Assembly (NCBI GenBank): GCA_023078555.1
Contig: CM041200.1
Span: forward strand, 8,951,528 to 9,015,527
Reading direction: 5' to 3'
Source of the DNA: Ulva prolifera
Taxonomy: Eukaryota > Chlorophyta > Ulvophyceae > Ulvales > Ulvaceae
Length of the DNA: 64,000 bases
Below, in pieces: positions 24,851-64,000 of the stretch; position 1 is the stretch's first letter, and each line of letters starts with the position of its first letter. The translations under genes were made by a program, and so were the position numbers. The notes under the pieces were generated by a model. The model searched no databases. It worked only from the letters and a program-made list of their open reading frames with translations, and was not told the DNA's origin.

Positions 24851-24920
24851 GGAGGGGTCGGGCGGAGCGCATTGGCAGAGCGTGAGACGTCAAACAGCGA
24901 TGGCGCCCCTGGCGTGCACT

Positions 24921-24943
24921 GGGGGGGGGGGGGGGGGGGGGGG
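24921..24943 (+). repeat. Poly-G tract, 23 nt
   Basis: Uninterrupted G run directly before the 63-bp direct repeat. Confidence 0.95.
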
Positions 24944-24947
24944 CCTG

Positions 24948-25249: not shown

Positions 25250-25973
25250 GTCCTACTGGAGTCAACACAAGGCTTATATGCAAACAAGCACACAGACACA
25301 TAATGTCTACCTATGTGCAAAACAACAAACGCTCCCGCTTTCTGAGTCCCTTTATCTCAGGGATCGCGTCGAGCACGTGTACAGCAACCATGCGTACAAC
25401 CACCTCTTGATATGCTAGCTTCTAGCTCCCTCACACAGCAGTCTCCTATTGAGCCATGCTTATGATTCTCCTGAAAACTCCTGGTTTCACCACAGCCTGG
25501 CGCGCAACAGTACGGGATGTGTACAACCAGGCCATCAGGGTTTGCATATTTTGTTTGATACTATACTAGTAGTTTACATTGTATGTGCTGCCAGATGTCA
25601 GCCGCAATGCGTATACGTATACATATATGTGCTCCGGCGTGGGGCAGGTGTTGCCTGGCGTGCTCATACAGTCTCTGCTGATTTCCTTTTTCATTGCAGC
25701 GAACAGCGGCATATGCCTTGATGATGTCGATGCATAGATGCTGTCGCTGATAGTGTGCGTTAACATTTGTATTGATGTGATTGTACTTTGGTGTCTTTGC
25801 TGTTGAGACAGAGGATACAACTGAGTGCCAGGTGATAGCAGGCACAAGGAGTGAGCTGTGAGACGTCTTAACATGACGACCGACTCGCTCCGCAGCGGTG
25901 GGCACGCTAAGCTCAATCGAATGTGCATCTAGCTATAGCATGGCGCTAATTTGCAGCCAACCTGCATTAGAAG

Positions 25974-26041
25974 TGGCGACGTGGCTTGGGTGGCGACGTG
26001 GCTTGGGTGGCGACGTGGCTTGGGTGGCGACGTGGCTTGGG
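25974..26041 (+). repeat. 17-bp tandem repeat, four exact units
   Basis: Unit TGGCGACGTGGCTTGGG repeated four times head to tail without change, in non-coding DNA. Confidence 0.95.
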
Positions 26042-26565
26042 CCATGACTTGATGCATTGTAATCACCTATGCTTCTTGTGAAGAATGTACCAATGTGGCA
26101 GTGCTTCCAGATTCACACCTGCGCCATGATAGGCCTGCACGCTGTCCATCTGACCTTGCAAGCTCCCCTCCACCCCAATGCCCGCTGCTGCTAGCAGCCT
26201 CAAATTCCAGGCCAAACCGGTTGCTGCTGGCATGGATTCGCTAGAGTGCCTTGCAAAACTGTCTCAGTGACCCACCGCAGTCCCAATCACATTTCATCTG
26301 GAGCCGTCTCTTGCCAATCCAAGCCTGACGAATCACATGTTGCCTGCTCATTGAACATAGACACGCACAGCACCACACTCATGGTGCATCGTGCAACGAG
26401 CAGTATGCACAGCACCGCACTGCAGGGTTGCACACCCGCCCCGGCGATCGATCTGGATCCAGACGCAGCTCGGCACTCTGCCCCCCTCTTCACTGTCACC
26501 GTTCGCCACAGGCACTGCCGCAACTCCATCGAGCGGGACGCATGCGTCGCCGCTGTCGCGCGCCC

Positions 26566-27270
26566 CTACACCCACGCTCGCCGCCACTGCCGCCGCTCCT
26601 GCGCCAACACCGCAGCATCCATCACCTCCCCAACCACACCATACACCAGAGGTGCCATTGACGACCGCAGCATGCGCCGCACGGCCGTCCGCCGCAGCAA
26701 GGTACTACACCCAACAATACAGTTGAGGACCCGCCTCTGTGCAGTCGCGCCCCTACCTTCCAGTGTGTTCATCGTCTGGTCCACAAACAGGGCCGCAGTG
26801 GTCTCTGCCCCCTCACCATCCGCCTCGCGCACCTCATCGTCATCACCGTCCCCAGCACCCGCAGCATATGCTTGACCTCTTGCCGCGCAGCGCGCTGCAG
26901 GCCACCCGAGTTGCACCTGCCGCCAGAGCTGCTGTCGATGCCATTGTGAACCGCCGCCAGTGCCGGCACCGGAGCAGGATCTCCGCGTGCGCTTCTCCGC
27001 ACTCCGGAGCGTTGTCGGTGCAACGCCGCTGCCGCTGCGTGAGCCACGGCGGCCGCCGGCCGCGGCCACATGCGTGGGGACATCGAGGATGATGTCTGTC
27101 GCACTGAGCGCGCTGCTATGATTGCCCAGGCAGCAGGTAGCTGCTGAGAAGAACCACCATGTGGCTGGATATCATTGTTAGAGCGTTGGTGTCCTACGCC
27201 GAGCGTGCGCCCGCTGGCTCCACGATGAGCGCTGGCATGGGCGCTGGCATCCTTGTGTGTAGATTGCAAT
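26566..27270 (-). pseudogene. Decayed copy of the acidic protein at 30808-31632
   Basis: Minus-strand stretches match the intact paralogue in order: AAAGGRRGSRSG, then ALAAVHNGIDSSS against ALAAVDDGIDSSS, then a D/E-rich stretch, then ETTAALFVDQTMNTLEG against EITAALFVDELINTFDG, AQRRVLNCIVGCSTLLRR, and APLVYGVVGEVMD against AHLVDGVVGAVMD. The matching segments lie in two frames, so at least two frame changes are needed and the copy appears non-functional. Its place downstream of the decayed U-box copy mirrors the intact pair. Confidence 0.6.
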
Positions 27271-27939
27271 GCTCAAAACTGTTGTACATGTGCGTACTTG
27301 ACCAGTGATGCCCTCCAGCTAGCGCAGGGTGACCGGTTGCATGATGTCCTGCTGGAGTTGGCACAGGCAGCAACATGGTGCACACACTTGTCCATCTGCA
27401 AGACACAGCGCTGACCGTCCTACCTGGCGTCAACAGCTGCAGATGGCGTGGTCAGCGGGGCCGTTCGAGCAGGAAGGGATGCCACATGACAGCCAGGTTG
27501 GAGAAGCTAGCAGTGGGTGGCTCTCCTACACAGCTTGCGCGCGGGACACCTCTCCAGTGACGCTGGCTGAGTGGCCATCACGCTGAAAATTGTACTCTGC
27601 AGAGCCCTGGGGATGCTGAATTGCAAGCACTGCGAAGGTGAATGGGGAATTGTCTCCGGATGTGCGGGAGATGCGATCCATGTTGCGCGCGTGCTGCTCA
27701 CAGTTTAGCCACGGCCAGCTGCGGTATCGCTGATTTTTTGAACGCCACGGCAGAATTTTACGCTGGAATTTGCAGTCCAGCATCTGAAGCGTTAGGCAGA
27801 CGGCGCCAAGCTCCCTTGATTCTTCTGCGCGCCTGAGGATTCTGGCATCGAGCGCTGCACATGCTCGAGGCATTCGAGAGCCTATATACCGACCTCATGA
27901 TACACAGCAGGTAAAACCAAAGCGTATAAGTTCATAATC
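27271..27939. other. Spacer upstream of U-box copy 2
   Basis: No gene recognised. It should contain the promoter of the gene starting at 27940; a TATATA stretch lies at about 27881-27886. Confidence 0.4.
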
Positions 27940-30172
27940 ATGGCTGGGCGATGCGGGGATGTCTTTGACGCTGCAGGGAGTAGCTTGTTCGAGGTATGCT
28001 CCACGCTTGATCGTAGCTTGTTCTCAGAAGACACCAGATCACGATGCCATCGTGTTTATAGATCTATAATTTCGTGAAATTATGTATCTTTGTGATGTAC
28101 GAGCGGCTGATGCTGTGGACCTGCAGGCACCGGACGACCTGGTTTGCCCCATCACACTCGCACTGTTCAAGAACCCGGTCATTACCACTGCCGGGACGAT
28201 ATACGAGGAGCATGCGATACGACTGCACATGCAGCAATCTTTCAGCGATCCTCTGACGAGCCAACGCATAAGCGAGCAGCTCACGCCTGTCATCTTCCTC
28301 CGAAGCAAAGCGAAGGAGTACGCGCAGAGAACTGCGACCCAGTGCATGCAGCGAATATTCGCGCGGGACTGCATGGAGCCTGAAAGATATCTCCGAAGAG
28401 CGTGCGAGCTTTGCGACGGAGCTGGTGCGTCAATGAACCATGCTGTTCTCTTGTTGTCGTCACAGAGTCGGAGAGGTAGGCATGCACCGCCCCACCAGCT
28501 CTGCCGCGAAACCCAGCGCCTCATATCACCGCAGCCTCTCTGGGATAGCTTCACAGCAGGCTGCCAATGTTTTGCCCCTCTGCATAAAACATCCACATGA
28601 ACACGGTGCACCGCCCCCCCCCACCCCATACTGTTTCCCGCTTGTTGGCCCACATAGGTTGGGCGTGCCAAGCGGGCGATGCCGTTTTCATGGGATGCAT
28701 ACAGGTCTGTCCGACCACCTCTGGCCGCTCGTTCGTTCTCAAACCTCAGCGGCGCGCCGCCATACTCTGTCCGACCTTTTGCCGGCACACGCCTCCTCAA
28801 CATGCAATATTGCGATATCGTGTCTGGACACGGTGCAGACATCAAGCTCAAGGGCATGCACTCCCTCGACTTCCAGGACCCCGCCGCTGGCTGCTATTCA
28901 GACCCCCGTCTGAACGGGGGCACCCTCACGGAGGCCCGCCACGATGCAGATCTGCGGCTGCTGTTCAGCTACGCATGCATGCTCGCCATGCGTGAGTCCA
29001 CCAACGCCGCGGCTTCTCTCGCTGCCTACTACATGTGCCGCACTGGTGCACACAGCGAAGTGGGCTACATTCTCGACGTCTGTCTCATCAATGGCTGGCC
29101 CGAGCCGCGCAGCCCTGAGCAGCCAGGGACGCCTGGAGCTCATGTGCATGCCGGCCATGCACCGCGACAGTCAGCCCACAAAGCTCATGCAGCTCTAGAT
29201 TCAGACACGCGTGTGCCTCAGCGCGGCGGCCCGCACCATGCATGCGGCGCCACCGTTGCTGGTGAGATCCCCAGCGGGAATGCATGTGCATCTGCATGTG
29301 CGGCTGGCGATGTCCGGGATGCCGGGGCGTCGCCCGAGCCCGCATCAGAGCCCCTGCATGAAGATCAGCAGCGGCGCCAGCTACGGCCCCGTGACGAAGC
29401 CTTTGTAGATGACATGGTCGCCTTCCTGCTGTCAGAGCGGTGGCTCCAGGGTTGCATTCCCGAGTTCCTCGACATCCTCATGAACAGCCTCGAAGCCAAC
29501 GAGCTCTCCGCGGCTGAGGTGAAGGCGGTCTGTGAGGGCCTGCTGCGCGCAGCAACGCCCGCCGCCGTCACTGCTGCGCGGGGCGCAGCCCGCACAGCCG
29601 CAGCTGCGGCAGACTTCTGCACCGAGGCGCTGCTGCGGGTGCTTTCCGAGGCGGGCGCGGCGGGGCTGCGGCCCGACGGACACGCACCCACGCAGCACCT
29701 GCCGTGCAGCTGCCCTGCATGTGATGCTGGAACGTGGCGCGGTCAGTCTGGCCACGGCGTGAGTCCGGGCGCGGCAGCGGAGGAGCTGCGTGGCAGGTTC
29801 GAGCGCAGCGAGAAGGCGATACAGGTGGTTCCGCTGCTGCTGAAGGTCACAGAGCATTGTGAGACCGCGAGTCTGCAGGGGGCAGGGGCGGGGCAAATCG
29901 ATTCGGAGAAGGCTCAGCACGCGAATGTTGATGGTGCCCCCCGCGTGGTTTGGCTGGATGAGGCCCAGCGCGCCAGAGTAAGAGCGTTGTTTGAAGGGAC
30001 CTTGCAGATGTTATCTAGCGTGCTCATAGTGTTTGTCGTGCTTGTGTTTCTCTTGTGCCTACTCTTGGGCGGCAAGCTCTGCTTAGATGTGTTGCATCGA
30101 ATCGTCTCTACTCTTGTGGCAGAGGAGGGACTTGAGCGGCAGAGGATAGCAGATTCAAGGAGTGAGCTTTGA
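27940..30172 (+). CDS. Tail-anchored U-box protein, copy 2
   Basis: Candidate E3 ubiquitin ligase of about 561 residues. Exons: 27940-27993, 28127-28424 and 28839-30172, phases agreeing and intron positions identical to copy 1. Exon 1 is an 18-codon leader (MAGRCGDVFDAAGSSLFE). Exon 2 is the U-box, residues about 19-88 (LVCPITLALFKNPVITT, TIYEEHAIRLHM, DPLTSQRI). Exon 3 has paired helices (LLFSYACMLAMRESTNAAAS and GYILDVCLINGW), a His/Ala-rich variable linker, a second helical block (DEAFVDDMVAFLLSERWL, FLDILMNSLEAN), a helix (KAIQVVPLLLKV) and a strong membrane helix near the C terminus (VLIVFVVLVFLLCLLL) followed by a basic tail of about 34 residues. A type II tail anchor with a cytosolic U-box is expected. 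Substrate unknown. Confidence 0.78.
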
Positions 30173-30807
30173 TACAGAAATGTTATGATACAGAAATGTA
30201 TTAGAGTGCAGCTGCTGACAAGCCAGGCAGAATGGAGTGTGCACTAGTAGACAGCCAACCTGTGCTGCCGGTGGCTTCCATGGGCTATGTATGGATGCAA
30301 TGTTCTCACTTTCGTTCCTCAGCAGTAAGCGTGCGTTGTATGTGTGGGAGCATCTGAGTGAAGCACTGCATTGCACTGCTGTGCAGCTACGTCGGCTACA
30401 ACATACCGAATGACGCTCACTGGTCTGTCCCAATGCATACAAACCAGTGCACAGTCACCGCATCACAGGCCACCACATGCGGTCAGTCCTGGTGAGCCCG
30501 GGCCAAGTAACATGGAGGGAAATTCCGCTGCACGCCATTGTCATCTAGATCGTCAGCACTTTGTCCGCCTGTTTGTGAGAACTATCCTCACCCCCAACAG
30601 TTGCCATGGCTAGCAGTCTTTATAGGCCAGGTCGGTGACAGGTCGATTGCACCACAGGTATAGGCAGTCTTTCATGATTGGCCGACCGCATCTCCCACTC
30701 AGATGATACCTGCAGCCACCCACATCCCCTCCCGCTAGTCCAGCCCTGAAAGCTCTCATAACATCTGCTCCTTGAGACTCAATGCGCCAGGATGCACAGC
30801 ACCGCAC
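30173..30807. other. Convergent spacer
   Basis: Lies between the 3' ends of the plus-strand U-box gene and the minus-strand acidic protein. No gene seen. Confidence 0.5.
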
Positions 30808-31632
30808 TCAAGCCTTGCGCGACCGCCTCGGCGATCCAGACGCCCGCCGCGCCATGTTGCGCCGCATCGTCGCCCGGTGCGCCGTCCGTCGCAAGGACTG
30901 CCGCAGCTCGGTCGAGCGCGTCGCAATCGTCGCTATTGTCGCGCGCCCCGCCGCCGCCGTTGTCCGCACCCCTACGGCCACGCTCGCCGCCGCCTCCCGC
31001 GCCACGTCCGCATCGTCCATCACCGCCCCAACCACACCATCCACCAGGTGCGCCATCGATAACCATACCGTGCGCCGCACGCCATTCTGCCGCAGCAGGC
31101 TACTAAACCCTGCAATCGAATCGGGGACCCGCCGCTGTGCCGTTTCCCCCCCACCGTCGAACGTGTTGATGAGCTCGTCCACGAACAGAGCCGCCGTGAT
31201 CTCCGCCTCCTCACTATCCCCGTCAATTACCTCATCATCATCATCATCATCATCATCATCCCCTGCAACTGCAGCATGCTCAATCGCCCGCTGCGCAGCG
31301 CACTCTAGCCCCCCCGAGCTCATGCTGCCGCTGCCATCGGAGCTGCTGTCGATGCCATCGTCCACCGCCGCGAGTGCCGGTGCGGGTTCTTCACCGGCAC
31401 CACTCCACACGCCGCCGCACTCCGCGTCGTCGCCGGTGCGCCGGGCGCCGCCGCTGCGCGAGCCGCGGCGGCCGCCGGCCGCAGCCACATGCATGGGGAC
31501 GTCGAGGATGATGTCTGTTGCACCAAGCGCGCCGCTGTGCTTGTCCGGGCTGCCGGCAGCTGCCGAGAAAACCCACCGTGTGGCTGAGGTGTTTGCGGTG
31601 GCGTCTCTGGTGTCAAGGGCCTTGCTTGCCAT
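30808..31632 (-). CDS. Acidic protein of unknown function
   Basis: About 274 residues from the ATG at 31632; the open frame continues upstream to about 31692 without another ATG. Features in order: N-terminal Ser/Ala/Gly region with GGRRGSRSG, DDGIDSSSDGSGS, a run of nine Asp encoded by a CAT-type triplet repeat (31230-31259), then a helical region (ITAALFVDELINTFDGGG, SIAGFSSLLRQNG, LVDGVVGAVMDDADVARE) and an Arg-rich C terminus. No family recognised. A degenerate copy lies at 26566-27270, so the gene was duplicated together with its U-box neighbour and the helical block is its best conserved part. It could be a single exon of a longer gene. Confidence 0.5.
   Translation of the reverse strand: MASKALDTRDATANTSATRWVFSAAAGSPDKHSGALGATDIILDVPMHVAAAGGRRGSRSGGARRTGDDAECGGVWSGAGEEPAPALAAVDDGIDSSSDGSGSMSSGGLECAAQRAIEHAAVAGDDDDDDDDDEVIDGDSEEAEITAALFVDELINTFDGGGETAQRRVPDSIAGFSSLLRQNGVRRTVWLSMAHLVDGVVGAVMDDADVAREAAASVAVGVRTTAAAGRATIATIATRSTELRQSLRRTAHRATMRRNMARRASGSPRRSRKA
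31230..31259 (+). repeat. CAT triplet repeat coding for poly-Asp
   Basis: Ten triplets or so within the acidic protein. Likely length-polymorphic. Confidence 0.9.
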
Positions 31633-31692
31633 TCCAGTGTTTGAGTTTTCCAGTGGCTGCCAAGCGTTTGGGTCGCCACGCGCCTGTTCCAC

Positions 31693-32612
31693 ACGGCCTG
31701 CATGCTGGTGCAGCTACATGTGCAAGGCTGCGACTTGTCGCAAGGAATGGTGTGCCATTTCAGAGACACTGGCATGCCGCGTCTGCATTGCACCTGCTGT
31801 TTGTGTGTACCTGATGCTTGTACAGCTATACCTCTGCCAGGCACACCTCTCAGCCGTGCTGCACAATTCTGCGGTTCTGGCTTGCCAGTCTCAGAAGCAG
31901 GATCGCTCTGCATACGCCGTAATGACGCACCAGGCCGTGGCCCTGCTTCCCAGCTCATTCAGCTCCCTAGTGAACAGCTTTCCATGCAGACAGACATCAA
32001 GATCTCATACAGAAGTTCCACAGTAGATCTGCTGTAACGGTGACATGGAATGGCAGGTCCGCCGCAGCTCGATCCACGATGTTGAGCCGAACTGTCCAGG
32101 TGGTAGGAGTTGTATGTGTCCGAAAGAACGGCTGAGCATTCATGTATTCAGACCGACGAGCACACAAGCCCTGAGTGGAAAACTGAACCAAATACTAGTG
32201 TGCTTGTAGGTACACTTTGACTAACCCAGAGCACCTCCACAAGCACCATACACCGCAGACTAATCTGGTACGATATACCGGTCACGCTGCAAGTGATCCA
32301 GTGCGGAAGTGTCCTGGGCGCTTTGTACTGCTGTGTCGGAGTGATCACTCCGACACAGCAGTACAAAGCAATGGGACGCTGATCGATCAGCGTCCCATTG
32401 GAACCAGAAACCTGGAATGCACCTCAGCGCAATGACCAGATGGCCCATCGGTCCTAAAAATCAAAGATATCCAAACATCGATGGATATTCAGGGACGACG
32501 TGAGCTGGAGTCCGCCATACTCTGACCAAGCTTAAGCAGGCTTCGGATTGCAGCCGCGTGTCACACATTGGCCAGCACAGAAGGGCCCGACAAGCCCGGC
32601 AGCAAACATCCG
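31693..32612. other. Spacer with tandem palindromes
   Basis: No gene recognised. It contains the two adjacent perfect palindromes at 32320-32400. Confidence 0.5.
32320..32400. repeat. Two adjacent perfect palindromes (50 bp and 32 bp)
   Basis: Positions 32320-32369 form a perfect palindrome with no spacer (centre GTGATCAC), and 32369-32400 form a second one (centre GATCGATC). They share one base. The arms are unrelated to each other. They could be transcription-termination hairpins, foldback elements or binding sites. No gene end lies close by. Confidence 0.92.
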
Positions 32613-49457: not shown

Positions 49458-52103
49458 TCACTGGTCCTCGAGGATTTCAAGACCTTCACCTGTGTTCTCT
49501 ACAAAACTGATGACCTCGAACTGACCCTGGACGTGAGCACCCCTCGCGATCAGCTGCGCCTTGACTGCCTCCAGCTCACTCTCCGGGGTCAGCTTGTTGC
49601 TACATCGAAACTCGTAGTATCCCCTGCTCGGCAAATTGAGCAGGGCTTGACACCAGTCTGCCTCAGCGTAATTTACGCCACTCGCCGCTGGGTTGCACTC
49701 CGGGCTATCATACGATGTGAGGGAGGCTTCCTCCAGACTCGCCATTCCACAGGCGAGCCTGGCAAACGCTCGCACGACATCGGTCGTCACAGGCCGTACC
49801 GCCAGGCTCAAGCTCACAAGGGCGGTCAGAGGTGCAAAGCACGCCTCCAGCTCGGCAGCGCCGCCGTGCCGGAACCCTTCAATGCTGACCTCGCGCAGCT
49901 GTTGCATCGCTGCCAAGTGACCCGTCAGCATGTGCAGCTGCATGTCCGCTGCCGCCGGCATGCGAAGGTGCAGATCCGCTAGATCTCTGAACGCAGCCAG
50001 CGGTTGCGACAGGACGGCATCACACACCGCCCGCGCCCGTGAGTCGTACGCGCTGTCGACGCAGCTCCAGTGAAACGCAAACTCCTGCAGATGAGGAGGG
50101 GCTCTCACCGACTGCAGCATCAGGAGCAGATCCTGTGCGGTGTCAAGCAGCGCATCCTCCTCGTTGCTGTCAGCGCTCCCGAGCATGGTGAAAGATGCTG
50201 GCCGGGTGAGACCGGACAGCCCAGCGGACATCGCTCGCACAAGCTCGGCGTTCATGCATGTCACGCGTACACTCGCAGTGACATCCATCGGCGCGGCGTC
50301 CGTTCGCCAGGTGAGACAAATCGCATCCGCCAGCACGCGCTCCCCATGCTGTGGGCCGATTTCGATGGAGACAGTGGTGAGCGCTGGGTGGCACGTGGCG
50401 TCTGCGAAAGCACTGCGCAGCAATGCGCAGTGTCCTTCAGTTTCCCGGGACGTGTTCGAAAACACCAGCGTGTCCAGCGCCGGGAGGGGCGTGCACCCCA
50501 GCCGTGTGGGGTGCAGCGCAGAACCCTGGTCCACTCCGTCCGCAACAGTGCAGTCATAGAATAATTGCCGCAGCGTGCGGAATGGGCCGCTGATGCCGTC
50601 GCTGCAAACGGGCTGCATGGCACTGCGGCCGGGGGCAAAGAGGTGGAGGGCTGTGAGGGAGGGGGCGGTGGAGAGGGCCGTGATCACCGGGTCAAGGGAG
50701 GGCGGTATGGTGGTGTTGCATCCAGGGCCCATGCACGCGGCGATCCTGCGCCGCTTGGGCGCTGGGCCGACAGCTGTGCCTTGACCAGTGGCGCAAGGCC
50801 CGGAATTCCTTGTTCTGGAGTGGCCTGGAGTCTTCTGTTCCCGGGGGGCGGGGCTGCGGAGGTGGAATGTCTCCAGCCGGGGCAGCGCGGAGATGGCCGC
50901 TGCCATGGCCTGGACGGCCTCCGACACGGCCTCTGTGGCTGCCTCTGTCGGAGAGCATGGCAGGCAGGGGGTGGAGAGGGTGAGGGACGTGATGCCGGTG
51001 AGCTGCGGCAGCACGCGGAAGACGGTAGCGGCGGGCGGGGAGGGGTCGCAGGGTTCACAGGAGAGGCGAAACATGCACAGCCTCTCCAGCTTTGAGTGGT
51101 GGAGCAGCACAGAGCAGAGAAGGCTGGCTGCCTCTGCGGTGGGGATGGCGCAGGGGAGGTAGAGGGAGGAAAGGCCGGGCAGGGCGGGTTCGGTGCGGGA
51201 GAGGAGGTCCAGGAAGCTGAGCACCGAGGCGGGGGAGTGGCCCTCAGAGATGGTGAAGGGGCAGGGCTTGCCCTGTCCTGGAGTCACCCACAGGTCGGAG
51301 TATGCCTGCACACACACGGCCCGAGTGCGACTTCGACTTCGCAGGAGCATTCAGACCTTCATGCAGTGGAAGAGGCAGCGTGGGGTGGTTGGCAGCGGAC
51401 TGTGGCTCCATCACCGTCCGGCGCTGCGAGGCAGTGTGTCAGGCACTGTCGTGGTGATTGACAGATGCAGGGATCAGCGTGATTAGCAGGGAAAAGAAAG
51501 AGAGACCAGTGCGCATCAGCAGCAGAGCACGGGCTGTCAAAAGTGGCGAGGTGTATGGGCTTCTCTCCGCACCTGCTGCAGAACTATGGGCCAAGAGAAC
51601 AAGGCAGGCGCTGACAGCGTTCCGGCCTCACGAAACACCAGCAGCTGCATGTTCTTATCAAGACTCAGCAGGGCATGCAGCATTGCCTCTTTCTCCGAAG
51701 CAGACCTCCAATCTGTCGCTCTCAGCTTGGCTGCAAGAGCTCGCACCAGCTGTGTGCTGTTGTATGCGGACAGCTTCTCACTCACCTGCAGAATAAGGTC
51801 TTTTTGACAGACAATCATATGTATATGCAGCAATGAATTGAAGCACTGCATGCACACCTGCAGGGCGAGGCTCAGCTCTTCGAGGGCGAGCTGGGATGGG
51901 TCTTCTGTGGCAATCGCGGCCCATGCTTCAAAGTCGTCGAGCGCGATGCCTTCCGGCAGCTCCACGAAGCCATCAAACTCCATCAATGCCTCGATCACGG
52001 GGGATTTCGTCGCCAGGTCTGGGTCAACGGGTATGCAGACGTAGACTGGAGATCTTTCGCAGCCGTGCGGAAGAAGCAAACATGGGTTCTCGAGGCTTGG
52101 CAT
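49458..52103 (-). CDS. BTB-like/LRR protein A (left member of pair 1)
   Basis: About 768 residues. Exons (minus): 52103-51858 (246 nt), 51785-51573 (213 nt) and 51305-49458, all phase 0. Exon 1 (residues 1-82) reads like a BTB/POZ fold: VYVCIPVDPDLATKSPVIEA, FVELPEGIALDDFEAWAAI, LALEELSLALQ. Exon 2 is a helical linker (KLSAYNSTQLVRALAAKL, SLDKNMQLLVF, LFSWPIVLQQ). Exon 3 is a run of degenerate leucine-rich repeats (LPQLTGITSLTLSTPCLP, SLDPVITALSTAPSLTALHL, LTALVSLSLAVRPVTTDVV), closing with LPSRGYYEFRC and an Ile/Val tail. BTB domains can dimerise and bind Cullin3, and LRRs bind ligands; such roles here are inference. Head-to-head with protein B, 536 bp apart. Confidence 0.72.
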
Positions 52104-52639
52104 CGAAGACCTGTGTAAAAAAAGTGAAAATAGCGTAGAGACCTAAGGATATGCGATACCTAGCACAGCAGGTGTGCCTGTCGGCGTTCTAGTTGCCCTT
52201 CTGCACTTCAAACGCTCAGAACACATTAATTTACACATGCAGACGGAGCTCTCAACAATTCGATTGCCCTACATGGTTGCCACACACATGACCCAAGCCT
52301 GCACAAACCTTGGCCAGGCTCGTTCACTGTTTGATATATCGGGCGACGTCATTTTCGAATGCTGTGGGCGCGTGCATGCGTGACATCGCCTCCGCGAAGC
52401 TCCGCAGGAGAACCGCTACTGGGCAGCTGTCGAGACGCCTTGATCGCACTGCCCCATGGTCCTGCGAGTCTCACATTGTAGCCATGCGTCTCCGTCTCTG
52501 AAGTGCCTTCTGGAGATTTACCAGCGCTTGCACACAGGCCTAGGTCACACGAGCGAGCAGCCCCACGATTTGTGCTAAGACGACTTGCTGATTACTTCAC
52601 GCCGAATGAACGTTGTTATCACTGGCTGACAGTATAGAC
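52104..52639. promoter_or_regulatory. Putative bidirectional promoter of pair 1
   Basis: The whole 536-bp gap between two divergent start codons. It shares motifs with the matching gap at 62038-62586: TTGATNTATCGGG followed by GGGCGCGTGCAT (here 52331-52377), and CAGCTGTCGAGAC (here 52424-52436). The second motif lies 216 bp from the plus-strand ATG here and 211 bp there. The conservation may reflect function or only recent duplication. Confidence 0.5.
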
Positions 52640-53285
52640 ATGGCAACTGTGGAGAGTCCCTGCTTTCTGCTCGCGCGAGGAGCACCCCGGTCAAGCGTGT
52701 ACGTGTGCATCCCGGTAGACGATTCCTTGGCCCGCCGTTCGACAGTACTGGACACTTTCATGCGGTCAAGTGGCATCAATGAGCTGCCTGAGGCAGTGAG
52801 TTTGGACAGCTTTCAGACATGGTGTACAATGCCGCTGGAAGGTCTCGATGATGCACCGCTGGAGGACCTCGCTTCCGCTATTCAAGTGCGCTACGATCGA
52901 CACTGTCTCGTCTTCAATGCCCATGTTGACTGTGTTGACGCGAGCAATGTGTTGTGATCCAGGTTGGCGCGAAGATGTGCGACGGAGAAGAGGCCCTGGC
53001 AACGCTAGCAAAAGCGATTGCGGACAGGATCTCGAAAACGTCCAGCATTCAAGCACGCGAAACTGACCCAGTACCGACCCAACACACGTTGGGCAATCTG
53101 TCGACGCAGTCGAGATGGCTTGTGTTCCAGCAACTGCAGCTCTTGGATGCTGGAGCTTGGACAAATTTGCCACTACAGCTGCAGCATGTGCGCTCCTCCG
53201 GTAGAGACTGTTGGCCAGCGTCACCAAGATGTAGCAGCTGCGTGATTTTGTTGCCCAGGTCTGTTTGCTGTGTCACCCCCGCCCC

Positions 53286-53326
<41 letters not shown>

Positions 53327-55450
53327 CCATGACAAAATCTATCCGTCACTCTTGGTCTTGACCACATCATGGCCGGCAGTATCCCTGTGTATGTAGATTG
53401 TGATGCAGCCATTCATTGTGCCAGATACGCTAGACCATTGCCAAAGCCACGATTGGCCAAAATCACGATCGCACGGGTGGGCCTGGATGGCATGTTAACT
53501 TGAGCACCATAGCAGACACTGGTCGCGATGCCGGAAAACACGGCGCCATCATGTACCCGACTCCCCATGCATGCACTTGAGCACCACCCCGCCTCCGCCA
53601 TGTTCACCAAGCCCCCTCCATGCCCCAGATCCGAATCGCGGAGGTGTCCAAATTCTGGTAGGCCACAAGACAGCATGGCGCATCATCACAGATGCATGCT
53701 GCGCATGCAGGATTACCTCAACGCGTGTGCGAGTGCAGCAACTGGCCGGTCGCTGACGGTGCGGGCGCCCATGCGCGGCGGCCGGCGCCATGCGGCCTGC
53801 GCCAGCCGTCCCTCCCAGGACTCCCTCGCTCTGCTGTCCCGCACCACCCCCGCGGCCCCCGGCCTGCACACCCTCCGCGTCGAAGCCCCTGTCGCCGACC
53901 CCGCCGCTGCGGCCCTGCTTTCGGCGGCCCTCGTCCACCACTCCAGCCTCTCCTCCCTCAGCATCCCCAAACTCGCGTGGAGCGCCACACCTGGAGCAAC
54001 CCCACCCGCCGAGACCATCTACCGCACCCTCCCCCGCCTCTCCCACCTCACCGGCCTGACTGTGGCTATCCCCCATGGGCCGGTCCAAGATCCCGCCACC
54101 ACCGAGGCAACGATCCGCGCCCTCGCAGCCGCAATCGCCGCCCTCCCCGCCCTCGCGTCGGTCACGCTTACCAGTGAGACGCCTGTGGGTACATCATCGC
54201 CACAGCCACCTGCCGATCCGTCTCTGCGCCACAAGCGGCGCCGGGGCGGCGGCCTCATCGGCCGCGCCGCATCGCCCTCCCTCGACCCCGTCGTTGCAGC
54301 CCTCTCCACCGCCCCTGCCCTCACCTCGCTCTCGCTTCCGTGGCTACAGGTGGACGCAAAGCAGCTGGCCATATCAAGCCTGCGCGGGGCCTTTGCGGCG
54401 CTGCAATCGCTCCACATCGCCTTCGATGACCACAGATCCGCAGCGCCGCAGTCCAGTCCCGCCGCACAGCCGCTGGACCTTGGGCCGCTGCCCGTGCTGC
54501 GCGTGCTGCGCACAGAGGTGGCGCAGCATGCTAGGCAAGTCTTCCCGGTCGCGGCCGTTGCCGAGGCCGCTGCGCAGCAGCCCGCGCTTCAGGTTCTTGA
54601 CGTCCGTGGAGCTGCATCAGGGGATGCATGCGACACCGCTCCGCGCCCCGCAGAGCCGCCCGCGGCCGTAACTACCACGACCCTGCACCTTCATCTCCGG
54701 CTGGATCTGGACGCCTGTGTCTTCCAAAGGCAGGACTACATGGCAGGCCTGGACAGCCTGTCGCAGCTGTCGAATCTGCACAGCCTGACGCTGGTGTTTG
54801 GCGAATGTTTCACGCGGCCAGGTGCAGATGCAGGCCCTCAGCCATGTCTGAAGCCCCTGACCACTTTGCACTCGCTCCGAGACCTGGAGGTGGAGAGTGC
54901 CGGTGGCGTGCTGAGCGGGTGTGTGGCGGCCGCGCTGCTGGCGATGCCTGTCAGCGCGCTGACTCAGCTAACGGCGCTGTCGCTGTGCGCGGACGCCCAG
55001 GCATCCGAGGAAGCATGTGATGTCGTCGCCCTTCTGCCGGGGCTCACCAGGCTGCAGCGGCTGCGTGTGGGGGGGCTGTGCATGCTGGGTAGAGAGGCAG
55101 CTGAACTGCAGGGGTGCCTGTCGCCGCTGACAAACCTGACACAGCTCGAGCTGGCCGTCTCGCCGATCGACGCGGGGCTAGTGCGGGTTTTTGCAGCGTG
55201 CGCAGCGCGCATGCCGCGCCTGCGTGCAGGGAGGATGGCCAGGCCGGAGATGGTGTGTGCGGGGTGGTTTGAGGGGCTGCGGGACCTACCGGGCTGGGGG
55301 CGGTATGAGTTCGAGGTCGGTAAATGGCTCGAGGCAACGGGGTTCGTGGCGGAGCGGGAGGCGGTGCGGCAGGCGCTGATCTCCCGGGGCGCGTGCGTGT
55401 CTGGGGCCTGCACACAAGTTGACTTTGGGGCTGGTGGCAGCTCCTGTTGA
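52640..55450 (+). CDS. BTB-like/LRR protein B (right member of pair 1)
   Basis: About 736 residues. Exons: 52640-52885 (246 nt), 52963-53187 (225 nt) and 53711-55450, all phase 0. Exon 1 is the BTB-like domain (SSVYVCIPVDDSLARRSTVL, NELPEAVSLDSFQTW, DLASAIQ). Exon 2 is a helical linker that keeps STQSRWLVFQQLQLLD. Exon 3 is LRR-like (LLSRTTPAAPGLHTLRV, LPRLSHLTGLTVAIPHG, SLDPVVAALSTAPALTSLSL, LPVLRVLRTEV, LSQLSNLHSLTLVFG, LLPGLTRLQRLRVGGLC). It ends in WGRYEFEVG and a Cys-rich tail. By hand alignment its first exon is about 45% identical to that of A but about 77% identical to that of E. Intron 2 holds a 39-nt poly-C run. Function unknown beyond domain resemblance. Confidence 0.72.
53287..53325 (+). 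repeat. Poly-C tract, 39 nt, in an intron
   Basis: In intron 2 of protein B. The longest homopolymer in the window. Confidence 0.95.
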
Positions 55451-56257
55451 TGACATCCCACCACACGGCCTTCCCGTTGATGTTACCCCACCACATAGCC
55501 TTCACCTGCCCAAAGTTTGCATGCACAGGTGAGGTGTCGTAGTAGCTGCATGTAGGAGTCTGTAGTCGCTCCATGCGGCCGGTGTCCGACGTGCATTCAT
55601 GGCTGTAGCACACATTTGGAGGTGCCGTGTAGATCTGCTGCGATGTGGCCTCATTTCATTGTCGCACACTGCTAATAGCGCCATCCAGGCAGACGTGCAT
55701 ATGTCAGGTTGTCCTCAGTGCTGCATGTAATGTGGTGCACAGCAGTTCAATCAGCGATGCACAACTTGCAGAACGCCCGATCTACTGGTAGATGCCCAAC
55801 ATGTCAAGGAATGCAATGCAGCGCAATGTAAAACGCTCGCCAGCAAGGCTGTCACTGCATGCACCTGGTGCAACAGCTGCCGAGACCGTTTGAGGTGCGC
55901 CATTGACACGCCGCTTTTGGAGGAACGTGACCGGCCTCTGACGCTGCTCTGTACAGATACACGCCAGAATCAATGTCAGAAGAACGGCTGTTGATGTGTG
56001 GCGCCTGCGGTGCTTCCCACGCGCCATGGTGACAACGCAAGCCGCTTGGACTGGATGGGCAGGACGGCGGCCAACCTGGTGGGGGACGGGGTGTGCCGCA
56101 TGAGTTGCATCTCCGATACTTATCTAGCCCCGAATCCGGATCATGTGGCTACTTTTCAAGGCGCACGAAGACATCACCTGCGAGACTCGCAACAGACGCA
56201 CTACTTGCCAGTGCTCCCTCCTTACCAACATGCATGCCTGAAGTGTTTACAAAGCAA
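55451..56257. other. Convergent spacer
   Basis: Between the 3' ends of copies B (plus) and C (minus). No gene recognised. Confidence 0.5.
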
Positions 56258-58122
56258 TTACTGCTTCGCAGATACGTTGTCAAAGCTAATGTATCCAGGA
56301 AAGTGTTGAACGTAGGCACCGCGAGCCACCAGCTGGTGCCTGACCGCCTGCACCTCCCCCTCCGGTGTCGCCTCGTTGTGGCATTCTAATTCATACGTGC
56401 CCCGGCTGGGCAGCTCCAGCTGGCCCCGGAACCAGTCCACATCAGCATAGTCGTCGCAGTCCGCTGCAGGGTTCAATTTCGGGCCGTCACGTGATGACAA
56501 ACCCGCCACACCCAGGTGCGGCATGGCCGAAACCACCCGCGGGTGGTCGCGAGCCCACGCCCGCACGAGGTCCGCCGTCACCGGCCGGAGCCTCACCCGG
56601 AACTCTGTCAGCAAAGTCAGTTGTGCAAAGCATACATCAAACTCGTGCACCCTCGCACGCGCGACTCCGTCAATGGACAGGTCCCGCAGCTGTACCATCC
56701 CCTGCAGCTGCTTCGCCACCATGCTCATCCGCATGGAGATCCGGGCTGGCATGGCCAGATGCAGGGATGTCAGCAGCCGCAGCGGCTGCAGCGGCTGTGC
56801 AATGACAGCATGGCACAGCGCTCTGGCCTGCTGGTCGGACCTCCTGGCGTGCAAATTCAAGCGGACGTCGATGTCTGCAGGGACGTCATGGTGGCTACAG
56901 GCGGCAGGGCGGGTGCCACATGCTCGACACCCTCCAGCAGCTGGATCCCTCCTGGGCCGTACACATCGATGTGCAGGGTGTGCGCAGACTCCACGAGGCT
57001 GGGAAGGCGCGACTGCAACACCTGGGCCATCTCTTCTGTCATGCCGCGCTCGACGCGCACAGTCACCGCCTCCGGAGCAGCGTCGGCGTACGCCCTGAGC
57101 TCGAAGCCGCTCCGGAAGCGCTTGCGGCGGGGCTTCTCAAGCCGGACGTCCACCACGTCGGGGGCCGGGTGGATCGCCGCGGCGGCGAGCATGCATATGC
57201 GCCGCAGTGCCCCGCAGTCGACTCTGCAGTCTGGGGACGCGCTTGTGTACACGAGGTGCTCCAACGCCGGGAGGTGCACGCCACTCATGCCACTCATGCC
57301 ACTCATGCCACTCGTGTCGAGGACCTCCATGCCCGGTGGTGGCCCCTCGCCCCCGCCACCGTCGACACCATTGCTGGCCTTGTATGCCAGCCGCTGCAGC
57401 GTGCGGAACGGGCCGAGCATGCCGCTGCAGGGGAGAGGGCGGCCGAGGGCGGCACATCCGATGTTGAACGTCAGGGAGGTGAGGGAGGGGGCGGTGGAGA
57501 GGGCGGCGATGACGGGGTCGAGGGAGGGTGGTGTGGGGCCGCCACCTGCGGGGCCCATGAATGCAGAAATCCTGCGCCGCTTTCGCATCGTACATGGCTC
57601 GGCGGCGGTGGCTTGAGGACTTCCTTGGCCTTTGGCGTCGCCGTGTGGCGCAGCCGCGGTGGCTATGCTTGAGAGGTCAAATTCCGCAAGACGCGGGAGA
57701 GCGGAGATGGCCGCTGCCAAGGCCTGGACGGCCTCCGCCGCAGCCTCTGCAGCTGCTTCTGCTGGGGAGGGCGGCAGGCAGGGGATCGGGAGAGTGAGGG
57801 AGGTGATGCCGGTGAGCTGCGGCAGGGTGCGGAAGACGGTTGCAGCTGGGGGCGAGGGGCCGCAGGGCGCCCAGGAGAGGCGCAGCAGTTCCAGCTCCTG
57901 CAGGGCCGAGTGGTGGCGCAGCGCGGAGCAAAGGAGATGAGCTGTCTCTGCGGTGGGGACGGCGCAGTGGAGGGAGAGGGAGGAGAGGCCGGAGAGGGCG
58001 GGGTCGGTGCGGGAGAGCAGATCCAGGTAGCTCGTGGCAGTTTCGGGGGGTTGGCGCTCAGAGATGGTGAAAGGGTGGGGCTTTCCGCCTTGCGATGGCG
58101 CGATCCACAGGTCGGCATAAGC
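56258..58122 (-). pseudogene. LRR copy C, truncated and frameshifted
   Basis: Begins after an acceptor (GTCCAG) where exon 3 starts in the paralogues (AYADLWIAPSQGGKPHPFTI). It continues through the LRR region (LPQLTGITSLTLPIPCLP, SLDPVIAALSTAPSLTSL) to the family C terminus (LPSRGTYELEC, VQHFPGYISF). No BTB-like or linker exon is found upstream to 59.4 kb. The reading frame changes once near 56870, between MTSLQ and VRLNLHARRS. Four 9-bp CCACTCATG-type units (57278-57313) encode Met-Ser-Gly repeats absent from the other copies. Closest in sequence to D. It could be a sequencing error plus a missed 5' end, but the missing exons favour a pseudogene. Confidence 0.65.
57278..57313 (-). repeat. 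9-bp tandem repeat coding for Gly-Met-Ser
   Basis: Four units within LRR copy C. Confidence 0.9.
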
Positions 58123-59033
58123 CTGGACACACGTGGGCTGGCGTGAGAATGCGCTTCGCAAACTCTGATCGCCGGAAGTCTTTCCACGACAAATTACATC
58201 TACCACTCTTCTCCACTGGCATGGGCAGTGATACCTGTGCAGGTTATGGTTTGTTGGCTGGGCTACAGGAGATAAAACAAAAGCAGCCTTTGGAAGACAG
58301 CCAGATATTTTCACTGAAGCGACAGCACAGTCACTGCTCGCAACGCTGGTGCACACGTGGCAATCATACAGACCGGTGATCTGCATGCACTCGGCAGTTT
58401 GTTTCCTTCCAGCAAGTCTGCCCAATGCCCTCCATGACTTCACATCCAAGAATCTGAGGTGTCCATGTTGCATGCTGTTGAGTCGCAAGACAGTGCGACC
58501 CAATGTGAGTACACCACAATACCTTTGGCAGGGAGTCTGTTACACTTGAGCGTATGAATACATAGCATATGGAGCAATGGTTGTATGGCGGATGGATGTG
58601 TCCGATCGCAAAACTTGGTGGTTCATCACTGCTTACTGCTCCATTGTCAACTCTCGAGATCGGTGCATTTGTGTTGTCAGTTTAGTGTGGTCACGGTGGC
58701 GCCGTGTACGCACAGCAAGAGAGAGGTGCAGTCTATACGTCCCTGGACTGTACGCGTGCACACAACAGCATGATCTGAATTCTCCTGCCGTGGCATTCTG
58801 CTGTCATGTGTGGTGTCTCCACTTCTGGGCAGCTGCATGTTCAAGGTACATCCTCAGGAGCAGGGTGGTGGGTTATCTTCAGGGCTGCTGCTCAGGTACA
58901 AGCACTGCAGTCTCCAATGACATGCTAGTCTCACATTTCACCAGCAACTGAACGAGTTCACCCTCGAGCTTGGTAACGGTGGCAGCATGACCTCAAAGCC
59001 ACGCAATCGTGTGCGTGAGGGCGGCAGGCGACC

Positions 59034-59063
59034 CGGGCACTGCACCGGCCGGTGCAGTGCCCG
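59034..59063. repeat. Perfect 30-bp GC-rich palindrome
   Basis: The arms are CGGGCACTGCACCGG and its complement, with no spacer. Confidence 0.9.
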
Positions 59064-59194
59064 CGGGGGCGACAATGCCGCTTCCGCCACCGGTACAATT
59101 TTGCAGCGCCACCATATGTTCAGGATACTGGCCAGGATGCTGATCAAGGTACCAGGGGGTTTGGGGCTGAGCAGAGATAGCTTGAGGGTCAGGT

Positions 59195-59236
59195 GTTGTG
59201 GTACAAAGACAAAACTAGCAAGGCAGGTAGCGCCGC
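59195..59236 (+). repeat. Solo copy of the ACAAGGACAAA-type terminal repeat
   Basis: GTTGTGGTACAAAGACAAAA then AAGGCAGGTAGCGCCGC, followed by CA-rich DNA. Confidence 0.45.
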
Positions 59237-59427
59237 AGAACACCAACGGGGGCACCACACACCCCCCCAACCATCAACTCGCAACACAGACCCACACACC
59301 TATGCACCCACACTGCAGCACTCACCCCGGCCGCAGACAGACTCACACGGACACAGAGGCCCCTGCACCGATGCTCACACACGCACACCCATGAAAATCA
59401 TGTGAATTTCTTGGATCGACACCTGTA

Positions 59428-62037
59428 TTACTCTTCAGCAGGGTCAAACCGACGATTGAAGCTGATATATTGCAAACGATCTGCAACATCAGCACCGCGG
59501 TCAATCAATTGCTGCCTGACTGCCTCCAGCTCCCCCTCGGGCGTCTCCTCGCTGTCGCATGAAACCCAGTACGTGCCCCAGCTGGGTAACTCCAGCAAGC
59601 CCCGGAACCAATTGATGTCAGCCAAGTTCGAATTGATCATGCCATGCCCTTGCTCACACGCCTCAAAGGAGGCCTCCTTAAGCTGCGGCATGGCACACAC
59701 AGCGCGCGCCCACGCCCTCACGTCGTCTTTGGTCACCCCCACGTCGTCTTCGTACACCGGCAAGACATAAAGCACGAAGCGTGTCAGCGCAGTCAGCGGC
59801 GCAAAGCACCCATAAAGCTCATCCGCGCCTCCGAGCTTAAATACACCGACATTGAGGTGCCGCAGCTGCGTCATCCCCTGCAGCTGCTTCTCCACTATAC
59901 CCAGCGGCATGCACATACTATAGTAAAGAATGGGATACTAAGGCACAGAGATGTCAGCAATCTCAGTGGCTGCAGAGGCTGAGAAAGCACGTCGCAGCAT
60001 AACGTCTTGACGCGTATGTAATCAGAGAACATGTTCACGTCAAAATCAAGCTCCTGGAGGGAGGTGAATGTGGCTAGAGGCGGCAGAATGGGTGCAACAT
60101 GCTCGACCCCCGCTATTGACTTGTCACTATAGTTCTGCAGGCGGACCTTCAGGGTCAAGGCTGACTCCGCGAGGCTGGGCAGGTAAGACTGCAGCACCTT
60201 GGCCACCTGCGCCGTAATGCCGCACTCGAGGCGTACAGACACGCGTGGAGCAGAGCAACTGCAGACGTCGAGCTCCAAGCTATTCGAAACGCAAGAATTC
60301 CCCATCCGGACCACCACCGCCTCCAGGGCCGGGAGGAGTGGCGCGGCGGCGAGCAGGCGCCGCAGGGACCCGCAGTCATCTGCGCAGGCTGATGACTTGT
60401 TTGTGAGCGTGAGGTAAGTCAGTGCCGGGAGGCGCGAGCCGCTGATGTCGAGGATCTCCATGCCCAGTGGCGCCCGCCCGTCCCCGCCTGCGTCGACCCG
60501 ATCACTGCCCTCGTACGCCAACCACCGTAGCGTGTGGAACGGGCCGCAAATTCCGCTACAGGGGAGAGGTCGGCCGAAGGCGATGGCTGGGATGACAAAA
60601 CTCAGCGAGGTGAGGGAGGGGGAGGTGGAGAGGGCCGCAATGATAGGGTCTAGGGAGGGCGGTGTGGCGGCACGGCCGGAGAAGCCCATGCATGAAGCAA
60701 GCCTGCGGCGCTTGAGGGTGAGCGCTGGCCCGTCGGCTGTGGAGGTGCAGTCCGCATCGGTGCCTTCTGCATCGCCATGTTGCGGGGGCTGGCTGGCGAT
60801 GCTGCCGAGGTAAAACTCCTGCAGTTGCGGCAGCGCGAAGATGGCGGCTGCCATGGCCTGCACGGCCTCCGCCGCAGCCTCTGTGGCTGCATCGGCTGGG
60901 GAGGGCGGCAGGCAGGGGGCTGAGAGGGTGAGGGCGGTGATGCCGGTGAGAGGCGGCAGAGCGCGGAAGACGATTGCGGCGGGTGTGGAAAAGCCGACGG
61001 GCGCAAATGAGAGGTGCACCGCCTCCAGCTCCTCTAGGGCCCGGTGGTGGCGCAGCACGGAGCAGAGGCGGTCGGCTGCCTCTGTGGTGGAGATGGCGCA
61101 GGGTAGGGAGAGAGATGACAGGCTGGGCAGAGCGGCGTCAGTGCGGGAGAGGAGAGAGAGGAAGCTCAGAACCGACTCGGGGGTGTGGCAATTAGAGATG
61201 GTGAAGGGATGGGGCTTGCCGCCTTGTGCTGGCGACACCCACAGGTCGGCATATGCCTGCACATGTGGGGACCTTTTTGCGACTGCGCTTATAGAGCTAA
61301 CCAAGGGGCTGAACGCATCGAAATGGGCAGGTCTCACGCCAAATGCTAACTGCAGCACTGCCCTTCACTGCACCGGCATGATCATGCACAGGAGTCTCGT
61401 GATCGCATGCCTGACCGAGGATCGGAACACAAAGACAGTCTGCATCAGCTGCGGGCAAGGGTGCACAGGTCGTGGCCGTCAAGGTGAAGAAGCTCTTCCG
61501 CACCTGCTGCATACCCATGGGCCAGGAGAATAGGACGGGCGCTGACAGGTCGCCGAGTCGCCGAAACACCAGCTGCTGCAAATTGGTCTGAAGAGGCAGC
61601 AAGGCACGCTGCATTGCCTCTTTGTCTGAATCAGAGCTCCAATCGGCGGCTTTCAGCTTGGCTGCAAGAGCTGATGCTAGTTTCCCACTGTTGTGTGCGG
61701 ACAGCTTGTCACTGACCTGCACCAGACCATCTTTTAACCAGCTCCTCATGGGCTCACCTACACGCGACGGCCTTTGATGCTACATACACACCCGAAGAGC
61801 GAGGCTTAGCTCTTGAAGGGCGAGACTAGATGGGTCTTTGGTGGAAATCGCAGCCCATGCTTCAAAATCGTCCAGAGAGATGCCTTCCGGCATCTCCACA
61901 AAGCCATCAAATTCCAGCAATGTCTCCATCACGGGCGATGTTTTCGCCAAGCCAGGGTCAACAGGTATGCAAACGTAGACTGGAGACCTTTCCGAGCCGT
62001 GTGGAAGCAGCAAACATGGCTTCTCGACGCTTGGCAT
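59428..62037 (-). CDS. BTB-like/LRR protein D (left member of pair 2), with one apparent frameshift
   Basis: Exons (minus): 62037-61792 (246 nt), 61716-61504 (213 nt) and 61256-59428. Exon lengths and phases equal those of A. Exon 1 is about 80% identical to A by hand alignment (MPSVEKPCLLLPHGSERSPV, VEMPEGISLDDFEAWAAI). Exon 2 has KLASALAAKLKAADW and LFSWPMGMQQ. Exon 3 has the LRR region (LPPLTGITALTLSAPCLP, SLDPIIAALSTSPSLTSLSF) and the family C terminus (LPSWGTYWVSC, LQYISFNRRF). The frame changes once near 59920, between SIPFFTI and MCMPLGIVEKQL, so exon 3 is not a multiple of three. Either the gene is newly broken or the assembly has a one-base error. Everything else looks intact. Confidence 0.65.
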
Positions 62038-62586
62038 GGGTATTTCGTCGCGAAAGAATGGTCACAACGTATCAAGCTGGGGAACACGAGTTCCGGATCG
62101 ATGGGTATGCCTGTTTGCGATCAGCTGCAGGTAGCTGTTTTGCGCCTTCAAGGGGGGCAAGGCCAGGAAGAGCGTGGACCGAAGCCTGCGTACATGCGGA
62201 CAGAGCCTACAAGCGCCTTCAGATCGCAGCCCAAATAGTACATCAGTCATTGTCAAGCCAAGCAAAAAAAGCTTACATGTGCACTTAATGTGTGCTTGAT
62301 CTATCGGGTGGCATAGCTTTCGATGCTTGCGGGCGCGTGCATGGTCTGCATGAGCACGGATGCACTGCACACAGTCAGCTGTCGAGACTCCTCGAGGGCA
62401 CTACACCAACCCCCTGTGGCTCTCACAACGCAACATATGTCTGATTCCGACTCTGGAGTGGTCATTGGCTGTATGCGTTCACTTGCGTGTTCAACGCGCC
62501 TTCACCTTAAAGCTGCAACACTCAATTGGTCGTCTCGCACCGGCTGATCGCAACAAAATTGTGGTCCGCACACTGAGGCGAAAAGC
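62038..62586. promoter_or_regulatory. Putative bidirectional promoter of pair 2
   Basis: 549-bp gap between the divergent starts of D and E. The motif corresponding to 52331-52377 lies at 62297-62342 and CAGCTGTCGAGAC lies at 62376-62388, in the same order and with nearly the same distance to the plus-strand ATG as in pair 1. Confidence 0.5.
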
Positions 62587-64000
62587 ATGGCCAGCGTGGA
62601 GAGTCCCTGCTTCCTTCTCACGCGTGAGGCACCCCGTTCAAGCGTGTACGCGTGCATTCCGGTAGACGCGTCCCTGGCCGGCCGTTCTTCAGTACTGGCA
62701 ACTCTGATGCAATCTAGTGGGATTCAAGAGCTGCCGGATGCCGTGACTCTGGACAGTTTTCAGACCTGGTGTACCATGCCGCTGGAAGATACTGATGCTG
62801 TGCCGGTTGAAGACCTTGCTTCCGCCGTTCAAGTGCGCTGCGACAGCTGCTCTGTCGTAATTTTTGCTCTATTCGGCATGAATTGGCCGACATTGTGGCA
62901 TGTTTCAGGCTGGCGAAAAGCTGTGCGAAACAGGCGAGCCAGCCCTGGCAAAGCTGGCAGAACTGCTTGCGCACCGGGTCGCGAACGCATCCTGGAATAC
63001 AGACTGTGACCAGATGAAGCGAGTCCTGGGTCATCTCTCAACGGAATCGAGATGGCTTGTTTTCCAGCAGCTCCAGCTCTTGGACGGTGGAGCGTGGACA
63101 AAACTGCCACTGGAGCTGCAGCATGTGTGCTTTTGCCTCTAAGGTGACGCTTGTTCACCAGCTTCGCCATGATCAAGCAGCTTCGCACACACTGCTTGCT
63201 CAGTGGCGCCCCACACAAATGTCTTTCACCACACCACACCTCTGTCACTGACAGTCATGGGCATATCCCTGTGCAGCTCGTGGTTTGAGCTGTGGGCTGC
63301 ATATATGTATGACCAAAGCACGATTTCATCCCGTTGGTCTGGCTCACAGCCAGGATTGTTCACTTCAGCAGTAGCACAGATGCCAGTCAAGGCGCTGGTG
63401 TTCAGCGCGCAATCATGCATGCAACCTCGCCCGCATGCATCTGAAAATCACTCCCCCTCCGATCTGTTGGCGAGTTGAATCCACCCGGTGCCCTCCACGG
63501 CAGAGATCCTACACACACAGATCCCTTTCACAGAAGCGTCCGTGTTGCAAGTTGTTGAGTCAGTGCGACTCCTCATGACGCGTGCACGTGCATGCGGCAC
63601 ATGCAGGATTACCTCAATGCAAACTCAAGCACAGCCACAGGCTGGTCGCTGACAGTGCCGGGGGCCATGGTAGACGTTGCAAACGAGTCAGCCCACACAA
63701 GCCGCCCCTGCAAGGACACCCTCGCCCTGCTCTCCCGCATGGCCCCTACAGCACCCAGCCTGCATACCCTCCACGTGCCTGCCGCCATTGCCGACCCCAC
63801 CGCCGCAGCCCTGCTGTCCGCGGCCCTCCTCCACAACTCCGCCCTCTCCTCCCTCAGCGTCCCCAGCCTCGCGTGGCACGCGTCTGATGCGGCACGCCCG
63901 GCAGAGGCCATCTACCTTACCCTCCCCCGCCTCTCCCACCTCACCAGCCTCACCGCCTCCATCACCACTGCGCCAGCCCGAGATCCCGCAGCCACCGCAG
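62587..64000 (+). CDS. BTB-like/LRR protein E (right member of pair 2), cut by the window end
   Basis: Exons: 62587-62832 (246 nt), 62909-63124 (216 nt) and 63607 onward, open to base 64000. Exon 1 (MASVESPCFLLTREAPRSSV, QELPDAVTLDSFQTWCTM) is about 77% identical to B. Exon 2 keeps STESRWLVFQQLQLLD. Exon 3 starts DYLNANSSTATGWSL and enters the LRR region (LLSRMAPTAPSLHTLHV, LLHNSALSSLSVPSLAW, LPRLSHLTSLTASI), as in B. The gene continues past the window, so its integrity cannot be judged. Confidence 0.7.

Follow-up and report, generated by a model that had tools for sequence, protein, structure and literature searches.

We find that a 64-kb window of the Ulva prolifera genome (contig C5, 8951528-9015527, in an assembly of 88.9 Mb and 44 contigs; GC content of the window, 58.6%) contains part of an array in which a head-to-head pair of related genes, here called type A and type B, recurs as a unit. 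The assembly gives 38 matches to PF00504 (chlorophyll a/b-binding), as expected of a photosynthetic organism. The reading that we favor, with a probability of about 55%, is a birth-and-death array of leucine-rich repeat (LRR) receptor-like genes whose divergent unit was amplified, perhaps with shared regulation. An older duplication would have given rise to two types, A and B, now diverged and lying back to back with a spacer of ~540 bp between them. Later copying along the chromosome would have involved this two-gene block, not a single gene, and left at least eight A-type copies, of which seven are accompanied by a B-type gene or remnant.

Re-mapping of the five paralogues recognized earlier, in a sequence-only reading of this DNA, bore out their order and strands as A(-) B(+) C(-) D(-) E(+). 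The placement of all five stands; C, however, consists of exon 3 only, and C and D are frameshifted. The identities that had been estimated by hand were right within one point, exon 1 protein identity being 80.5% for A/D, 76.8% for B/E, and 45.1% for A/B (and 43.9% for A/E). Likewise as read, exon 1 measures 246 nucleotides (nt) in A, B, D, and E, each time with a GT donor at its end. Full genes comprise this exon, an exon 2 of 210-225 nt, and a single long exon 3, and encode 768 amino acids (aa) in A and 736 aa in B. In the eight A-type copies, intron 1 measures 55-98 nt and intron 2 226-358 nt; in copies B1, B2, B5, and B8 (copy numbers are those of the whole array, described below), the lengths are 76-79 nt and 461-523 nt, respectively. 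Different exon structures, which had been named as evidence against a common unit, were not seen: the three exons are alike in all eight A copies and in B1, B2, B5, and B8. The features, in window positions, are as follows.

49458..51305, minus strand: gene A (copy A1) exon 3, predicted LRR-type solenoid, 615 aa plus stop; open frame, CAG acceptor, predicted fold matching LRR proteins
51573..51785, minus strand: gene A exon 2, 213 nt; splice sites, homology to other A copies
51858..52103, minus strand: gene A exon 1, 246 nt, conserved N-terminal part with no Pfam match; identity, Pfam scan, GT donor
52104..52639, no strand: divergent A/B spacer, 536 bp from ATG to ATG; 535-550 bp in five units
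52330..52383, no strand: conserved central element of the A/B spacer; ungapped matches in units 8, 7, and 2 against shuffles
52640..52885, plus strand: gene B (copy B1) exon 1, 246 nt; identity, GT donor
52963..53187, plus strand: gene B exon 2, 225 nt; homology, splice sites
53711..55450, plus strand: gene B exon 3, 579 aa plus stop, LRR-like; open frame, sub-threshold Pfam LRR_14 match (E 3.4e-4)
56282..58122, minus strand: C, represented by an A-type exon 3 alone, whose frame changes between about 56983 and 56836; homology
59428..61256, minus strand: exon 3 of gene D (copy A2), frameshifted near 59910-59931; homology, frame check
61504..61716, minus strand: gene D exon 2; homology, splice sites
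61792..62037, minus strand: gene D exon 1, 246 nt; identity, GT donor
62038..62586, no strand: divergent D/E spacer, 549 bp; spacer comparison
62587..62832, plus strand: gene E (copy B2) exon 1, 246 nt; identity, GT donor
62909..63124, plus strand: gene E exon 2, 216 nt; splice sites
63607..64000, plus strand: gene E exon 3, first part; open to 65358 in the adjoining sequence, outside the window

For C, neither exon 1 nor exon 2 was found. A run of 39 C at 53287-53325, within intron 2 of gene B, is a possible assembly trouble spot.

When the next 120 kb of contig C5 were joined to the window for a survey of the array, it was found to continue ~90 kb past the window and to hold eight A-type copies, all on the minus strand (A1, which is A; A2, which is D; and A3-A8). 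A B-type gene or remnant stands head-to-head with seven of the eight, on the plus strand, and unit 7 is without a B. Copies A1, A4, A5, A6, and A8 and B1, B2, and B5 are open throughout; B8 is shortened (532 aa of exon 3 and then an unrelated tail), and A2, A3, A7, B3, B4, and B6 are broken. Three further B-like copies follow in tandem, each without an A; exons 1 and 3 are open in two of them, and exon 2 was identified in none of the three. Allelic duplication was ruled out as the source of the copies by pairwise synonymous divergence (dS) of about 0.48 or more. A solitary B-like exon 1, interrupted by a stop, also lies 1.6 Mb from the array (C5:7414301-7414483).

Trees were computed for exon 1 (n = 15), exon 2 (n = 12), and exon 3 (n = 16), with the remnants B3, B4, and B6 left out, and all three separate A-type from B-type copies at support 100/100. 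In approximately unbiased (AU) tests, the groupings A1+B1 and A2+B2 were rejected both for exon 1 (p-AU 9.7e-5 and 1.2e-6, respectively) and for exon 3 (p-AU 4.9e-8 and 6.4e-4). Pairing of A with B by descent is thus ruled out, and with it, for exons 1 and 3, the contrary tree specified beforehand (A with B, D with E). Consistent with the earlier claim, the A/B split predates duplication of the unit.

To place this arrangement in the genome, neighbor orientation was compared across the family, which comprises 125 merged exon-1 loci (contig C9 alone has 90) when weak matches are omitted and 139 when they are included (E up to about 0.4); such counts are lower bounds for large families, and merged matches may be fragments. 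Of 52 loci, 45 gave an exon 1 plus exon 2 pair (seven did not), and 19 of these 45 were aligned with A and B. Among exon-1 neighbors within 5 kb, this array has six head-to-head (all within 1.5 kb) and three tandem, whereas the rest of the family has two head-to-head and 42 tandem; the two lie on C5, 1.9 kb apart, and on C2, 4.8 kb apart (weak matches). These counts reject a chance origin of the head-to-head order and agree with the proposal that it was copied along with the unit; a single arrangement underlies all six pairs, which are its copies and do not count as separate events. We infer that the divergent arrangement arose in this array and was then copied as a block.

A single ancestral event is enough for six close pairs, and one could therefore hold that an inverted duplication followed by block copying explains everything, with A and B hitchhiking together and having neither a functional link nor a shared promoter. 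The state of the units is in keeping with this: A and B decay separately, and B remnants are found at several stages of loss. We nevertheless consider hitchhiking alone rather unlikely, because the spacer is not uniformly diverged. Its length in five units is 535-550 bp (for unit 3, with an extrapolated B start), with an aligned identity of 0.44-0.65. A 54-bp element at the center of the unit 1 spacer, by comparison, has ungapped matches of 45/54 in unit 8, 38/54 in unit 7, and 36/54 in unit 2, against a maximum of 28/54 in shuffled controls for each of these three. Because the element outscores overall spacer identity, some cis-sequence in the spacer looks constrained. The element was not found at the B-like copies that have no A. 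Its retention in some units is compatible with shared regulation of A and B, and the spacer would then perhaps hold shared regulatory sequence.

The A and B proteins need not be partners. The sequence-only reading had suggested that the two work together, and one form of that idea is that they are obligate sensor and helper, with selection keeping the head-to-head order as in plant paired nucleotide-binding LRR (NLR) genes. The copying of the divergent order as a unit, the similar spacer length with its partly kept core, and the constraint on exon 1 in both types (see below) would all suit such partners, and paired plant NLRs are mostly head-to-head (PMC9528088). However, over the eight units both genes are intact in two, only A in three, only B in one, and neither in two, which shows no association (Fisher p = 1, with little power at n = 8): in units 4, 6, and 8, A is intact while its B is broken or shortened, and in unit 2, B is intact while its A is broken. 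Because integrity shows no association, an obligate pair is not supported, and the three B-like copies without an A and the lack of an extra integrated domain in the proteins scanned also speak against it. Overall, we regard obligate partnership as improbable. The likeness to NLR pairs holds for the divergent paralogues and the short spacer but not for NB-ARC or the P-loop (below), and stays an analogy.

Next we compared constraint between exons, using the ratio of nonsynonymous to synonymous change (omega) pooled over intact copies (five of the eight A, and three of the seven B genes or remnants; pooled dS 0.60-1.07). For type A, omega is 0.13 (0.09-0.19) in exon 1, 0.31 in exon 2, and 0.55 (0.48-0.62) in exon 3; for type B, the values are 0.19 (0.11-0.29), 0.36, and 0.50 (0.42-0.59), respectively. 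By these estimates, exon 1 is strongly constrained and the LRR exon looser.

Gene A, judged by its identity profile, is in addition a mosaic, its 5' part resembling most A copies and its 3' part A4. In windows of exons 1-2, its identity is 0.66-0.85 with the six other A copies and 0.54-0.75 with A4, and at the start of exon 3 the values are 0.79-0.88 versus 0.66. Near nt 1000-1200 all copies are alike, and from about nt 1400 to the end the order is reversed, with 0.60-0.85 for A4 and 0.40-0.62 for the others. Max-chi comparisons of A4 with each of the six placed the change at nt 1016-1460 (window 51087 to 50643), with a highest chi of 146. The exon 3 tree likewise joined A1 with A4 at 100/100, and holding A4 apart was rejected (p 0.0005). 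Our interpretation is recombination or gene conversion, by which gene A would have acquired another LRR end. Because the N-terminal exons are held constant, they probably have a common signaling or docking role; because the LRR exon changes faster and has been exchanged at least once between array members, it probably serves variable recognition.

What the proteins are was approached by domain and structure searches. The model of exon 3 is an alternating strand-helix solenoid with 84 matches in the PDB at E <= 0.001, and the 50 of these 84 that were listed include NLR, ribonuclease-inhibitor, and F-box LRR chains (COI1, D3, MAX2), the first matches being NLRC4, F-box LRRs, and ribonuclease-inhibitor LRRs. 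Pfam LRR matches in the proteins scanned were below cut-off only. We therefore assign exon 3 to the LRR solenoids with moderate confidence. Neither exon 3 of A and B nor eight proteins of other loci gave an NB-ARC match at E <= 1, the P-loop motif GxxxxGK[ST] was absent from the 10 copies scanned, and Pfam revealed no additional integrated domain in the proteins to which it was applied. A basic KRRR cluster, a possible nuclear-localization signal, is present in the LRR exon of A1, A5, B1, and B11 and absent from that of B2.

The genes had been labeled BTB-like, and the sequence of their N-terminal exons does resemble the SKP1/BTB layout by eye. In sequence tests, the label found no support: Pfam returned 0 families for exons 1 and 2 of A and B and matched neither BTB nor SKP1 in 14 family members, two PDB profile searches with the N-terminal exons were negative, and hhalign with small templates from this genome, four BTB proteins and one SKP1 fragment, gave probabilities of 0.2% and 0.1%. 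The AlphaFold model of exon 1, with a predicted local distance difference test score (pLDDT) of 52.5, is too poor for a reading of its fold. These results bear directly on the main rival for the protein itself, namely that A and B are substrate receptors of ubiquitin ligases, with a BTB/SKP1- or F-box-like N terminus and an LRR part, in a family expanded like plant F-box families. The resemblance by eye and the presence of COI1, D3, and MAX2 among the structural matches fit this view, although these three stand there beside NLR and ribonuclease-inhibitor LRRs; set against it are the searches just described, Pfam having found no F-box match either, and an exon 1 model that is unusable. A ligase-adaptor role is conceivable but doubtful.

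Several of our results weigh against the receptor-like, co-regulated array that we favor. As to the fold, mean pLDDT of the exon 3 model is 59.9, and TM-scores by query length are 0.22-0.44 for the 50 of 84 matches listed. The usual Kyte-Doolittle mark for a membrane helix is 1.6, and the hydrophobic peaks of the five proteins checked (19-residue window) reach 1.63-1.96, so that these proteins could contain a membrane helix. As to birth and death, the frameshifts could be assembly errors. As to regulation, units 3 and 5 have a short form of the spacer element whose ungapped match is not above shuffles, the element was not found in units 4 and 6, and unit 7 retains it despite lacking a B, so that it may serve A alone; a pattern built from the element occurs four times in 88.9 Mb, three of them in these array spacers, but because the spacers themselves supplied the pattern, its rarity speaks to specificity alone. 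As to recognition, positive selection on the LRR exon is not supported, omega being below 1 in every 60-codon window of exon 3. As to the mosaic, exon 1 alone is compatible with A1+A4 (p 0.12; with exon 2, p 0.31), and the permutation test, run on the 28 highest-scoring triples and giving 0 of 300 permutations at the observed value in each of the six tests, presumes even rates along the gene. The gene order, the trees, the amplification of the unit, the difference in constraint, one mosaic gene, and an element retained in some spacers are observed; recognition, cell location, and co-regulation of A and B are inferred. A receptor-like role would follow from the constant head, the looser and exchanged LRR exon, and the birth and death of copies.

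Other observations concern the family and the remainder of the window. A degraded exon 1 of the C9 branch, with stops, lies at window positions 1-179 (C5:8951482-8951706, minus strand). On C9, seven family exon-1 loci at 2.42-2.57 Mb have counterparts of near-equal score at a distance of 69-98 kb (2438497 and 2536161, for instance, whose loci L031 and L032 differ in few residues), indicating either a recent segmental duplication or an assembly duplication. Window positions 20615-32023 (plus strand) contain three open-frame pairs that are 50-60% identical and in the same order at about 20.6-27 kb and 28-32 kb, a second local duplication. An open frame with a basic stretch, bZIP-like by eye, lies at 7697-8839 (minus strand).

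A literature search limited to titles and abstract openings found no description of this LRR family, and the amplified divergent LRR pair is best seen as a variation on known gene organization. F-box LRR proteins (COI1, D3/MAX2) share the LRR solenoid and are structural matches of the LRR part, but the N-terminal exons here match neither F-box nor SKP1. The NLR-like genes of the chlorophyte Chromochloris zofingiensis are likewise clustered algal LRR genes, but they carry an NB domain, not found here (PMC7145615); they also have transmembrane signatures, which the proteins of this array may share. Paired plant NLRs (RRS1/RPS4, RGA4/RGA5) are also diverged paralogues back to back, with a C-terminal LRR and in clusters; their divergent order and short spacer are described in PMC9528088. 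Unlike these, the Ulva genes show no NB-ARC match, P-loop, or integrated domain, have an uncharacterized N terminus, and show no association in partner integrity. A bolder and, in our estimate, unlikely proposal is that the alga independently evolved an LRR recognition system free of NB-ARC, with a new N-terminal domain, well above 100 loci, a pair block under a shared promoter, and LRR cassettes exchanged behind a fixed N terminus. Because eight copies within a single genome permit a comparison of pairing with single-partner loss, the array would, if the receptor-like reading is true, allow one to ask whether head-to-head order evolves for co-regulation rather than obligate partnership. It would then parallel, in an alga, the resistance-gene clusters of plants, with other components but the same habits: a constant head, a variable LRR, tandem birth and death, and divergent pairs.

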